Source: Flavobacteriales bacterium | GTDB lineage: Bacteria; Bacteroidota; Bacteroidia; Flavobacteriales_D; Crocinitomicaceae | Direction of reading: 5' to 3' | DNA length: 48,680 nt | Assembly (NCBI GenBank): GCA_947475275.1 | Contig: CANJNE010000009.1 | Coordinates: forward strand, 1-48,680 | Part shown: positions 360 to 8,264 of the stretch, piece after piece | Layout: each line of letters begins with the position of its first letter | Numbering within the stretch: position 1 is the first letter of the stretch | Translations under genes and position numbers: made by a program | The notes under the pieces: generated by a model | The model's database searches: none | Told to the model about the DNA's origin: nothing | What the model saw: only the letters and a program-made list of their open reading frames with translations

Positions 360-3041
360 TTATTTCAAAATCAATCGGTGCATTGAAACAAATGTTCCGT
401 TGGAAACTTCTACAAAGTAAATTCCTACTTGAAATGCACTTAAATCCAAAATGGTTTCATTTCCATTTATTTCAAAGCTTTTCGTCATTGAACCATTCGC
501 TGCTGAAACAGTAATCTTTCCATTTTCAATAGCATTAGCACGAATTGTTACCAAACCAAAGCTTGGATTAGGGAAAATTTCCAATATGTTTGATTCAATT
601 GAATTGATTCCAAGATAATTGTCCGTTCCATCGCAATTTTCGTCGATGCCATTATTTAAAATTTCAACGGCATTCGGATTGATATTGGGGTTGTTGTCGT
701 TACAATCACCAGTTTCAGTTGCATAACCATTTCCTGGATCTTCACACAATTGCATCCCAATAAGGCTACCTCCAAAATTATCACCATCCAAATCTTCGTA
801 ATATGTTATGAATGTCAATCCATCATCAACGCCATTCAAACAGTCGTTATCTAATCCATCACAAATTTCAGTTGCACCAGGATATACTGTAGGTTCTGCA
901 TCGTCACAATCGGTATTGTTGGTTGCGAAACCAGGCCCTGGATTTGAACAAAGGCTTAAACCCGCAGATTGAGTGGCATCACCAAAACCATCATTGTCGG
1001 CATCGGTGTAATAGGTTACAGGTCCTAAAATTTGATTGTTGTTGTCATCACAATCTCCACCACTTAAAACATACCCATTGGGTTGGTTACAACCTGTTTG
1101 TGTGATTTGTTGATTACCAACGCCGTCATTATCTGTATCCTGATACCAAACTGTATTTGGATTAATCAGTGAATCACTATCGTTGCAGTCCGTATTGTTC
1201 AATACGTAGTTTGCTGGAGCAGTACAAGCTGAAATGGTTGTATTTGTTGTTCCGAAACCGTCACCATCTGCATCTGCATAAAACGTCTGAGGTGTTAAAG
1301 ATGTGGAATTACCAATTAAGGTAACATTATCATTTCTCCAAGTGGAACCTGATTGGGCCATACTAAGGATGTAAAATCTAAATGTCACTTGATCAACTGC
1401 ATCAAAAGCTGAACCAAGCAAAACGGTATCGATTTTATCAGTTGTGATTGGCGCGCCCGTAGCTAAATCAGCAGTGTAATTATCTAAGCTTGAACGCAAT
1501 ACCCATGAAGGTGTTCCGCCAGATGCACTGATTCTGTTTGTGAAAATCAATTTATTCAAGTCTAAAGTATAACAATCGGCTGCATCAATAGAAAATTCAT
1601 TGTATTGATTCAAATCTATTGTGCCAGAAGTATTCCAACCACTGTTATTGAAAACGTTGTTGGCTGCAGCACATGTAGTACCAGATGTTCCGTAAGGACT
1701 AAAAGTCGCAAATGCCGGTTGAGCTGTTACATCTAGAGCGGTTACAGGGCAAGCAGATGGTTGCGTAAATTCATAAACTCCGATAGTAGTTCCAAGTGCG
1801 GTTGCGTCACCTCCTGAACAATCTTCATCGATTCCATTGTCTGGAATATCTGTTCCGTTAGGATTAATACTTGCTAAATTGTCATTACAATCTTGGTTAT
1901 TGCTTACGTAACCAACCGGAACGGTGCAAGCTGTTGTTGTATTCGTTGGAGAGCCAAATCCGTCGTTATCACTATCTAAATAGAAAACAGTTGTTGGCAA
2001 TCCTATTGACGAGTTATTATCATCACAGTCATTGGAATTGGTTACATATCCAACCGGCAAAGAACAACCAATCGTTGTATTATTTGGATTTCCGAGTCCA
2101 TCACCATCAGTATCTGCAAAATAAGTAATCCCCGCTGCGATGGTTAAATTTATAGTAATGATACTGTCGCAAAGTGCTGCGTTCTGAATGGTATCAGAGT
2201 ATATTCCGGAAACCGTGTAGGTCTCATCACCACTTGGTACGGTGTATGAGTTACAATTAGAAACTGAAATCGTTGAGGTTGTGATACAAGAATTTTCGGG
2301 AGTTACGGATTCCCAAGTTGAACCAAAACGAATCTCATCAATTTCTACATTACCTGTTCCCGTTGCTGCTGTTCCTGCTTGACGCAAGAAGATAGAAGCA
2401 AAATTTGCGAATGTATTCGTTCCAGAACTGTTTGAAACTGTTGCTGCCGGTTCAGGGGCGCTCACGTTAGGATTGATAAACAAACTGGCTTGAATTGGAG
2501 CCACAGCAGCATTCAATTTTACAACAACAAAAATGGTTGTCCCAACAGGATATTCACCACTGTATGTTTGAGTCGGTGTCCCTCCTGTTGTATTTTGCAC
2601 ACCCATTTGAAAAGTATTAGGTGTAACACCTGCTTTAATGAATACTCTTGGCGCAAAGATGGTGACACTGGCCCCTGCAGTTCCACCAAATCCTGTAAAA
2701 TACTCACCTGTTGCACTCAAACCTGTAGTATTTGATACTTTAACAAAAAAGGAATAATACCCAGTTCCTGCAATACCCGTTATGGCTTTATTAACATCTT
2801 CTGTATTTCCTGCAACCAAGGTAGAACGATTTCCAATAGCATTAGGAAGGTTATTTGCATACAAACTATTGCCTTGATCGGAAGGCGTTGTTATGGTCTG
2901 CTGTTGGCCTGGAGTTGCTCCACTATGTGTGGCCCAGCCATTTGCATTCAATGCACCATTAAAATCAAAAGTTTCGATTCCTTGTGCGCTAACTTTTTGA
3001 AATAAAAGGGCTGTTAAACTTAAAAGTAATATCTTTTTCAT
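360..3041 (-). CDS. T9SS-exported protein with MopE-type calcium-binding-like repeats
   Basis: This is an 893-residue secreted protein. Residues 1-19 form a signal peptide. Residues about 20-250 are beta-rich with no named domain I recognise. Two blocks, about 305-412 and 583-812, hold six repeats of the type YxDxDxDGFG ... GY ... DCDD or DCND ... INP, the MopE putative metal-binding motif; the acidic DxDxDG loops resemble calcium sites. Residues 415-580 between the blocks look like a jelly-roll region. The last ~70 residues begin IFPNPSFG and end in HRLILK, a type A sorting domain for type IX secretion. I infer a surface-anchored or released, calcium-stabilised protein; its ligand is unknown. 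It is monocistronic, with its own promoter and terminator. Confidence 0.85.
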   Translation of the reverse strand: MKKILLLSLTALLFQKVSAQGIETFDFNGALNANGWATHSGATPGQQQTITTPSDQGNSLYANNLPNAIGNRSTLVAGNTEDVNKAITGIAGTGYYSFFVKVSNTTGLSATGEYFTGFGGTAGASVTIFAPRVFIKAGVTPNTFQMGVQNTTGGTPTQTYSGEYPVGTTIFVVVKLNAAVAPIQASLFINPNVSAPEPAATVSNSSGTNTFANFASIFLRQAGTAATGTGNVEIDEIRFGSTWESVTPENSCITTSTISVSNCNSYTVPSGDETYTVSGIYSDTIQNAALCDSIITINLTIAAGITYFADTDGDGLGNPNNTTIGCSLPVGYVTNSNDCDDNNSSIGLPTTVFYLDSDNDGFGSPTNTTTACTVPVGYVSNNQDCNDNLASINPNGTDIPDNGIDEDCSGGDATALGTTIGVYEFTQPSACPVTALDVTAQPAFATFSPYGTSGTTCAAANNVFNNSGWNTSGTIDLNQYNEFSIDAADCYTLDLNKLIFTNRISASGGTPSWVLRSSLDNYTADLATGAPITTDKIDTVLLGSAFDAVDQVTFRFYILSMAQSGSTWRNDNVTLIGNSTSLTPQTFYADADGDGFGTTNTTISACTAPANYVLNNTDCNDSDSLINPNTVWYQDTDNDGVGNQQITQTGCNQPNGYVLSGGDCDDNNNQILGPVTYYTDADNDGFGDATQSAGLSLCSNPGPGFATNNTDCDDAEPTVYPGATEICDGLDNDCLNGVDDGLTFITYYEDLDGDNFGGSLIGMQLCEDPGNGYATETGDCNDNNPNINPNAVEILNNGIDENCDGTDNYLGINSIESNILEIFPNPSFGLVTIRANAIENGKITVSAANGSMTKSFEINGNETILDLSAFQVGIYFVEVSNGTFVSMHRLILK

Positions 3042-6615: not shown

Positions 6616-7509
6616 TTAAAGAAAAGACAATATTTGTTTGACCAATAAGCTATCTGCATCGTGCGGCATCCAAACAGCATCTTCATGCCTGCGAAACCAA
6701 GTTAACTGACGCTTGGCATAGTTTCTTGTATTTTTCTGAATGAGTTCCACTGCTTTTTGCAAAGAAATTTGTTGATCCAAATGTGTGAAAAGTTCCTTGT
6801 ATCCAACCGTTTGCAATGCTTGCAAATGAGAAAATTTCCGAACACTTTTCACCTCATCAAGTAACCCATCATCCATCATTTTCAAAACCCTTTGGTCAAT
6901 CCTTTGATATAGTATTTCTCTTGGATGATCAATAACGAAACGTTTAATATTGAATGTTTTGTCTTGTTTTTTGTTTGTTCGCAATTGAGAATATTGTTTA
7001 CCTGTAATTCTAATGGCTTCAAGAGCACGAAGCAGCCGCATTGGATTTTGTTTATCTATTTCCTCATAAAAAACAGGATCTTTTTGCTTTAATTCTTCCA
7101 AAAGGAATTCCAATCCATTGGCTTCTAATTCTTGTTGAAGTTTATTTTTTATGTTGGCATCAACTGGTATATCATCAATTCCTTGACATAATGCGTCAAT
7201 ATACATCCCTGATCCACCAACTAGAATAGCATAATCTTGTGTTTTGAAAATTTCTTTTAAAATTCCCTCTGCTTCTGAAGCAAAAACAGCTGAACTAATA
7301 TGGCTTGTAATGGAATGAGAATCTATAAAATGATGCGCAATACCTTTCATTTCCTCAAGGCTTGGTTTCGCAGTTCCTATATTTAACTCTTTGTAGAACT
7401 GTCTCGAATCGGCAGACAGAACCTCTGTTTTAAGTTCAAGAGCCAAAGCAACAGCTAAACTTGTTTTACCACTTGCCGTTGGGCCTTCTATTACAATGAG
7501 TTGTTTGAT
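6616..7509 (-). CDS. miaA: tRNA dimethylallyltransferase MiaA, apparent ATC start
   Basis: MiaA adds a dimethylallyl group to A37 of tRNAs that read UNN codons. The P-loop GPTASGKT is at residues 9-16 if translation starts at 7509, followed by LSADSRQFYKELNIGTAKP (substrate loop), GGSGMYIDALCQG, and the C-terminal NTRNYAKRQLTWFR motif. With this start it is 297 residues, the normal length. The first conventional start codon in frame is TTG at 7446, which would delete the P-loop. Upstream of the P-loop the frame has no ATG, GTG or TTG back to a TAA. At the position where homologues have ATG-AAA-CAA this gene has ATC-AAA-CAA, 11 bases after a perfect TAnnTTTG box. I therefore place the start at ATC; a base error is the alternative. 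Confidence 0.9.
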   Translation of the reverse strand: MKQLIVIEGPTASGKTSLAVALALELKTEVLSADSRQFYKELNIGTAKPSLEEMKGIAHHFIDSHSITSHISSAVFASEAEGILKEIFKTQDYAILVGGSGMYIDALCQGIDDIPVDANIKNKLQQELEANGLEFLLEELKQKDPVFYEEIDKQNPMRLLRALEAIRITGKQYSQLRTNKKQDKTFNIKRFVIDHPREILYQRIDQRVLKMMDDGLLDEVKSVRKFSHLQALQTVGYKELFTHLDQQISLQKAVELIQKNTRNYAKRQLTWFRRHEDAVWMPHDADSLLVKQILSFL

Positions 7510-7520
7510 AGTTTTTCTTT

Positions 7521-7528
7521 CAAAGGTA
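7521..7528 (-). promoter_or_regulatory. Bacteroidota -7 box of miaA (TACCTTTG)
   Basis: Minus-strand TACCTTTG matches TAnnTTTG. Eleven bases separate it from the ATC at 7509. If used, the transcript would begin only a few bases before that codon, which excludes any start further upstream. Confidence 0.55.
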
Positions 7529-7706
7529 GTTGATTTACCAATAAAAATCTCCAGAAAAAAGTCTCTTTGGTGGAAGAAAAATTAAATAAATTGATCCTAC
7601 TCTTCTGCTCGCCAAGTATTGTAATTGAAAGGTTCAAGCCTACAAATAAACATCTGCTTAATGGCGATACTATAAATATTAATGCTACCAGCTTTGCAAG
7701 CGACCT

Positions 7707-8264
7707 TTACTTCTTAATAGCATCCCAGGCCATTTCGAAAAGTCGACTTTTATATTCGAAATCTTCGTTTAAAGTTTGATTTTTATTGAGATGTTTTACA
7801 GTAGTTTCAACAAGCGAAGTAAGGATCCTAACAACAAAAAGTGGATTGAAATGCTTAAAAATTCCTTGATCTATTCCTTGTTCAATCAATTCCAGGTTCA
7901 TTTGAACATATCGTTGCGCCCGCTCCACCTCTTCGTCGTAATAAGGAGAATTTTCAAATTGAAGCATGAATTCAAAATCCTCCGGGTGCTCTAAATTCCA
8001 TTCCACTGAAGCCAACCATAATGTATAAATTGATTCTTTCAACGTTGCACCATTATAGATCTGTGTCATTGAATAATTGAAGATTCTGTCTTTTATATCT
8101 TGATATAAAGATTTTACCAAAATTTCTTTGGTTGGGAAATAATGAAAAAGAATTCCATTACTTACCCCTGCTTCTTTTGCCACTAAAGCCGTAGGTGTCC
8201 CATAAAAACCACTTTCCGCAAAAAGTTTACGAGCAGTTTTCATTAACAATTCCCGTTTAGACAT
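7707..8264 (-). CDS. TetR/AcrR-family transcriptional regulator
   Basis: This 185-residue repressor has an N-terminal helix-turn-helix (about 8-55), with the typical pattern ARKLFAESGFYGTPTALVAKEAG followed by VSNGILFHYFPTKEIL. The C-terminal ligand domain is helical and unassigned. The gene has its own promoter at 8282-8289, and a GACT-ATTC-AGTC palindrome sits just upstream of that box, so self-repression is likely. The thioesterase and MscS genes lie upstream on the same strand and may be co-regulated, but their shared promoter is separate. The ligand is unknown; acyl-CoA sensing would fit the thioesterase neighbour, but this is only inference. Confidence 0.9.
   Translation of the reverse strand: MSKRELLMKTARKLFAESGFYGTPTALVAKEAGVSNGILFHYFPTKEILVKSLYQDIKDRIFNYSMTQIYNGATLKESIYTLWLASVEWNLEHPEDFEFMLQFENSPYYDEEVERAQRYVQMNLELIEQGIDQGIFKHFNPLFVVRILTSLVETTVKHLNKNQTLNEDFEYKSRLFEMAWDAIKK

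Follow-up and report, generated by a model that had tools for sequence, protein, structure and literature searches.

The window analysed here, a stretch of 48,680 nucleotides from a Crocinitomicaceae genome (Flavobacteriales bacterium, assembly GCA_947475275.1, contig CANJNE010000009.1), carries on its minus strand the gene for MiaA, the enzyme that makes i6A37 in tRNA. Read from an AUC start codon, the coding sequence including its stop codon occupies positions 6616 to 7509, as judged by translation of the frame and by profile and structure matches; the span of 7444-7530 given in an earlier, sequence-only reading covers the start only, and miaA extends to 6616. The genome is a draft assembly of 2.68 Mb in 183 contigs, and a search of it returned a single miaA match. 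In a whole-protein profile search the product scored 264.9 bits against TIGR00174 (cut-off 148.65), and it matched MiaA crystal structures with a best E of 3e-58. Its N-terminal P-loop GPTASGKT (7462-7485, minus strand), visible in the translation and in the profile and structure matches, is intact and lies eight codons past the ATC. Lengthening the structural alignment by two residues brings the residue encoded by this ATC opposite residue 2 of the 2qgn chain.

On the minus strand, the start region reads TACCTTTG (7528-7521), 11 nucleotides (7520-7510), ATC (7509-7507) and AAA CAA CTC ATT GTA ATA GAA, followed by the P-loop codons (7485-7462). Translation of 7620-6400 places the in-frame TAA that closes the miaA frame upstream at 7584-7582, and from there 24 sense codons lead into I-K-Q-L-I-V-I-E-GPTASGKT. 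The sequence-only reading had claimed that no ATG, GTG or TTG separates this TAA from the P-loop, that ATC stands where the start is expected, and that a perfect -7 box lies 11 nt ahead of it. The translation and the list of open reading frames bear out the first claim and the minus-strand reading the other two, TACCTTTG being a perfect match to the Bacteroidota -7 box TAHHTTTG by its sequence and by family-wide statistics. It had also been correctly noted that a start at TTG 7446 would cost the P-loop: this first in-frame TTG of the ORF list (7444-7446, minus strand) lies downstream of 7485-7462 and is thus not a plausible miaA start, the shortened form retaining its Pfam IPPT match and losing the P-loop. 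The upstream neighbour in the window is a TetR-type regulator, which ends 197 nt away at 7707.

Is ATC at this position a common feature of the family? We searched 240 Crocinitomicaceae genomes, found a miaA match in 219 and used the start region of 128 (107, G232 and a further 20); 91 matched genomes, among them G257 and G258, lie outside this count. In the following, g1 denotes the window's own genus, and g36, g37, g38 and g41 are further genera of the family. ATC stands exactly eight codons ahead of the P-loop in 56 of the 128 genomes, namely in 19/24 of g1, 28/29 of g41, 4/4 of g37, 3/4 of g38 and 2/2 of g36, and in 0/65 from other genera, while neither ATT nor ATA occupies the start position in any of the 128. 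ATG is found at the same codon in five g1 genomes and in members of g6, g7 (several), g11, g40 and g43, and the remaining family genomes start at other nearby ATG, GTG or TTG codons. Outside the family we took 22 genomes of the order, and none of the 21 that were resolved (all except G046) has ATC at the start position. The comparison with sister genomes that the sequence-only reading had proposed thus supports it, with ATC in 19/24 same-genus genomes and in four further genera. The ATG in sister strains that it had named as speaking against an AUC start does occur, in the five g1 genomes, which form one separate, starred (well-supported) clade on the MiaA tree, and the other 19 of 24 keep ATC. 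Since ATC is absent from other genera and from these five genomes, an AUC start can be dispensed with.

From these comparisons, translation of miaA very probably starts at AUC. The sequence-only reading had already suggested this, and it is supported by the conservation of the codon in 56/128 genomes together with the lack of any other start in 38 of the 56 (37/55 and G022), in which no ATG, GTG or TTG lies between the in-frame stop and the P-loop. The other 18 have at least one such codon in frame, 2 to 30 codons ahead of ATC and at scattered positions, and therefore those genomes alone are no proof of AUC. Among the AUC loci, codon 1 is invariant and codons 2 and 3 are variable; Leu4 is written TTA, CTC, CTA, CTT or CTG, and such synonymous variation is the mark of translated sequence, which places initiation at or before codon 3. 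Among representatives of less than 75% identity, ATC is found in 35/35, compared with 39-71% for the commonest codon in ten other Ile columns (codon 7 excepted). Indeed, a synonymous-codon count over 139 usable columns in 54 sequences gave z > 10, by a score that ignores relatedness, in four columns only: codon 1 (ATC), codon 6 (GTC), codon 7 (ATA) and the P-loop Ser, whose score reflects the split Ser codon family. A generic near-cognate start gives no account of the strict C at the third base, never U or A.

The second fixed position concerns codons 6-7 (7489-7494, minus strand), which by codon-column counts are GUC AUA in most AUC lineages and GUA AUA in the window. GTC is used by 29/33 Val representatives at codon 6 in AUC lineages versus 3/27 in others, and ATA by 33/35 Ile representatives at codon 7 versus 4/28. 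Fisher's test of codons 6 and 7 against AUC gives p near 1e-9 and 3e-11 with shared ancestry ignored; starred branches allow four tree-independent pairs, of which, on average, two to three agree in direction and practically none runs counter, which is not significant. Exceptions to GTC ATA among AUC genomes include the window (GTA ATA), the four g37 genomes without exception (ATT), and G145, G144, G162 and G173, and GTC ATA occurs together with an ATG start in G159 and G065, as well as in locus L085 outside the family. We considered, unsystematically, whether GUC AUA serves to place out-of-frame stops, to avoid TTG or to pair, and no such meaning fits all genomes. The fixed GUC AUA may belong to the start element as its second part, may be targeted by something else or may reflect history.

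The -7 box is likewise found beyond the window. A perfect TAHHTTTG lies within 20 nt upstream of ATC in 22/54 AUC loci, where 1000 shuffles averaged 0.55 and never exceeded 4, and the looser TAnnTTTG within 40 nt in 23/54 versus a shuffled mean of 1.2; in the other 32/54 loci the box is imperfect. The 22 perfect boxes are spaced from ATC by 3 nt in three cases, 4 nt in two and 9-16 nt in 17. In Flavobacterium johnsoniae, probable promoters were taken with 4-5 nt from the -7 box TAHHTTTG to the transcript start (PMC6847099), and in F. psychrophilum the -7 box is placed at -12 to -5 and leaderless mRNAs are put at 5.5% (PMC9723704). By the 4-5 nt rule, the 4-nt spacing (2/22) predicts a leaderless AUC mRNA and the 9-16 nt spacing (17/22) leaders of about 4-12 nt; for the 3-nt spacing (3/22), the rule taken literally puts the RNA start inside AUC, and transcription would need to begin one base nearer the box than the rule allows. 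As far as motifs indicate, the 3-4 nt spacing of 5/22 perfect-box genomes is thus compatible with a leaderless transcript. In the window, transcription beginning 4-5 nt past the box would leave a predicted ultra-short leader of 6-7 nt (7510-7516, minus strand). With a -7 box just upstream, a nearly leaderless miaA mRNA free of a Shine-Dalgarno (SD) sequence is predicted.

The immediate context of AUC agrees with initiation in this phylum. A stands at -3 in 40/54 AUC loci and an SD-like core ahead of ATC in 0/54, which matches the A-3 described as an initiation determinant in Flavobacterium and a preference of Bacteroidetes (PMC6847099). The mean predicted pairing of the twelve upstream bases was 0.11-0.29 in the AUC set versus 0.13-0.55 in the non-AUC set, a rough contrast, the non-AUC set being aligned at the P-loop and not at each true start. 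We rejected a downstream hairpin that would aid the AUC start, as none was common to 14 single-sequence folds and the mean pairing was low in the AUC set. A start in another frame upstream was rejected as well, ATG in any frame occurring within 40 nt in 20/54 loci and spread over -38 to -20, and so was a TTG start at the -7 box or a frameshift from it, this TTG being in frame in some genomes, while in others it lies in a different frame or runs into a stop codon.

Are AUC starts a general habit of these genomes? We compared a 400-kb stretch of G167 (g41) with g1 stretches (G005, G021 and the window), which yielded 92 non-overlapping reciprocal-best ORF pairs at a median identity of 61%, and flagged a pair if, in one or both of its members, the alignment ran for more than 20 codons before the first canonical start was reached. 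This picked out two of the 92. One is miaA, which qualifies only in the g1 genomes, as an ATG is present nine codons upstream in G167; the other is a short pair that lacks any canonical start and resembles an antisense shadow. Between G005 and G021, 3/87 pairs were flagged and miaA alone was clear in both genomes; of the other two, one showed too little divergence for a judgement, with 37 conserved codons ahead of a plausible Met, and in the other only a single genome was without a start. A general habit was rejected, miaA being the only clear case among the 92 and 87 ORF pairs, so that non-canonical starts are no habit in this sample.

The classical non-canonical-start gene, infC, begins with ATG in 20/20 g1 genomes and G024, and also in G163, G158, G119, G120 and G167 from other AUC genera; the AUC genera covered in this way are g1, g36 and g41. 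In g1, infC thus gives no hint of being the classical IF3 feedback gene. Of 24 further infC loci of the family, 18 have ATG, five ATA-GCN (in g5, g9 and g12) and one TTG (G028). Beyond the family, ten genomes of the order were read for infC. In eight, ATA-GCN or ATC-GCN occupies the expected IF3 start, and in two of the eight an ATG follows within a few codons; we infer that ATA and ATC are the infC start codons there.

Other miaA genes were also seen with unusual starts. In family f2, loci L263 and L273 (G037 and G048) have no usable ATG, GTG or TTG ahead of the first strand; their miaA frame reads TTC ATT CTG AGC, and the TGA of the upstream ORF overlaps the CTG (CTGA), which suggests a coupled CUG or AUU start. 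Locus L087 (JAEEZY010000003.1, Bacteroidales bacterium Tb.RUG.96, around position 3001) has no ATG, GTG or TTG after the stop in the miaA frame and ATA AAA AAA CTA at the expected start, and L085, from another Bacteroidales genome, has ATG. L080 and L091 likewise lack a canonical start ahead of the P-loop. As to gene order, an ORF that we take to contain a lytic-transglycosylase-like stretch precedes miaA in L009, L003, L167 and L120 and ends 24-34 nt upstream, where the window has its TetR-type neighbour instead.

How else could the ATC be explained? The sequence-only reading had left room for a base error, and a draft assembly of 183 contigs with five same-genus genomes showing ATG at this codon might invite the idea of a G read as C, or of a decayed gene. 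Separate assemblies from five genera (56 genomes), however, share the ATC, and the presence of the same codon in sister genomes and four further genera excludes a sequencing error; the miaA reading frame is intact, and we give error and decay together practically no credence. It is very improbable, too, that AUC is an internal Ile codon behind an upstream canonical or near-cognate start, for instance the TTG of the -7 box, or behind a frameshift from it. Such a start would find candidates among the 18/56 genomes with upstream codons in frame: a TTG four codons ahead of ATC in G006, G025, G020, G119 and G120, a TTG two codons ahead in G146, G152, G166 and G175, and an ATG further upstream in G010, G155, G164, G167 and G020. 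It would, however, have no room in G013, where a stop codon directly precedes ATC, and hardly any in G007, G021, G160 and G153, where one sense codon (AAA or ACC) lies between the two; the 38/56 frames without any canonical codon offer it nothing, and at an internal Ile the absent ATT and ATA would be equally acceptable. A dedicated initiator tRNA would account for the strict AUC. ARAGORN found 29 (G021) and 27 (G000) distinct tRNAs, in incomplete lists (two of 32 G000 matches were left out), with three CAU tRNAs each, one of which per genome we take, judging the anticodon stem by eye, to be initiator-like. A GAU tRNA is in neither list, the ordinary tRNA-Ile GAU being missing from these incomplete lists too, and a dedicated tRNA seems to us extremely improbable.

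Translational coupling, by which ribosomes from the upstream gene would reinitiate at AUC with no initiation of its own needed, is an unlikely explanation with somewhat more in its favour. A same-strand ORF ends 24-34 nt ahead of ATC in four of five genomes (G005, G017, G143 and G152; none is listed for G129), and outside the family the miaA of G037 and G048 seemingly starts at a CTG or ATT that overlaps with the stop codon of the gene before it. The window nevertheless keeps its ATC with the upstream gene ending 197 nt away, and the nearby -7 box speaks for a miaA transcript of its own. A regulatory role is also not needed if AUC, once fixed in an ancestor, has simply been tolerated as a start and retained by inertia, a reading on the unlikely side. 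On a MiaA tree from which the first eight alignment columns were left out, and in which deep branches are unresolved and the direction of change is not given, the start state changes 12 times by parsimony, four of the changes being forced by starred branches, and AUC can evidently be done without; the pattern fits one old origin of AUC and repeated losses. Inertia sits less easily with a codon that is one base from ATG and yet stays fixed in AUC-lineage MiaA proteins down to roughly 50-60% identity to that of the window, without drifting to ATT or ATA, and with the synonymous fixation seen at codons 6-7.

Taken as a whole, the start region is likely best explained by weak AUC initiation of miaA on a nearly leaderless mRNA whose output may be linked to IF3. 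In g1, g36, g37, g38 and g41, AUC would lie at the 5' end of the mRNA or within about a dozen nucleotides of it, the -7 box just upstream giving a very short leader that is A-rich, weakly structured and devoid of a Shine-Dalgarno sequence. The ordinary initiator tRNA (CAU) would read AUC with a third-base mismatch, as the only initiator-like tRNA seen in the incomplete lists of G000 and G021 is a CAU one, and would yield the full enzyme with its P-loop. Judging from established knowledge, AUC initiation would be weak and discriminated against by IF3, which in a reconstituted system is described as disfavouring weak third-base pairs (PMC10158994). MiaA would then be kept low and would rise when IF3 activity or initiation fidelity drops. 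That AUC lowers or regulates the MiaA level is plausible by analogy with known systems; that it has been retained for an IF3-type control of this level is possible, at somewhat less than even chances.

The class of known rare starts is small. E. coli pcnB, with its AUU start, is like miaA a case of a rare AUN start outside infC; codon and gene differ. The start of infC itself is given as ATT in E. coli and ATC in Streptomyces (PMC5472188), and in infC the rare start goes together with autoregulation. Like miaA, infC is one translation-related gene whose AUN start is non-canonical and conserved; unlike infC, miaA lacks an SD context and has a predicted near-leaderless mRNA, and repression by IF3 is here hypothetical. 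Streptomyces sigR is described as having an IF3-repressed GTC start that is conserved genus-wide and keeps the protein level down (PMC5472188). As in miaA, this rare start is conserved and missed by gene finders; codon, gene and phylum differ, and the logic of SigR/RsrA stoichiometry has no known counterpart for miaA. E. coli miaA is itself under post-transcriptional control by CsrA/CsrB, for which binding of CsrA to the 5' UTR has been proposed as the mechanism (PMC12249760). This proposed route differs from one at the start codon; what is shared is that MiaA synthesis is controlled post-transcriptionally, which makes control plausible and is no evidence for a route through AUC.

According to the Streptomyces report, few non-canonical start codons have been characterised by experiment and start prediction uses ATG, GTG and TTG (PMC5472188). 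A gene caller limited in this way would begin miaA at the internal TTG and describe an enzyme seemingly without its ATP site. Among the literature matches listed, with subscription journals largely outside their scope, no title or abstract opening reports an AUC-started miaA. By comparison of genomes, the AUC of miaA is real, conserved and no artefact, and it extends the small known class by one new gene, in a new setting. The comparative support for the start assignment is strong, and we offer the regulatory meaning as a hypothesis, in which AUC may help to set the amount of MiaA made.

In summary, the five genera with an AUC-started miaA provide a natural system for the reading of a mismatched start, in a phylum that rarely uses Shine-Dalgarno pairing, and allow one to ask whether tRNA modification is tied to initiation fidelity. 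We speculate, with the odds clearly against us, that miaA is the Crocinitomicaceae counterpart of infC as the non-canonical-start gene, with AUC and the fixed GUC AUA of a near-leaderless mRNA forming a two-part element that is recognised in the course of initiation, and with MiaA output following IF3 or fidelity. If this holds true, the decoding of UNN codons in these bacteria would, via MiaA output, track IF3 activity or initiation fidelity.
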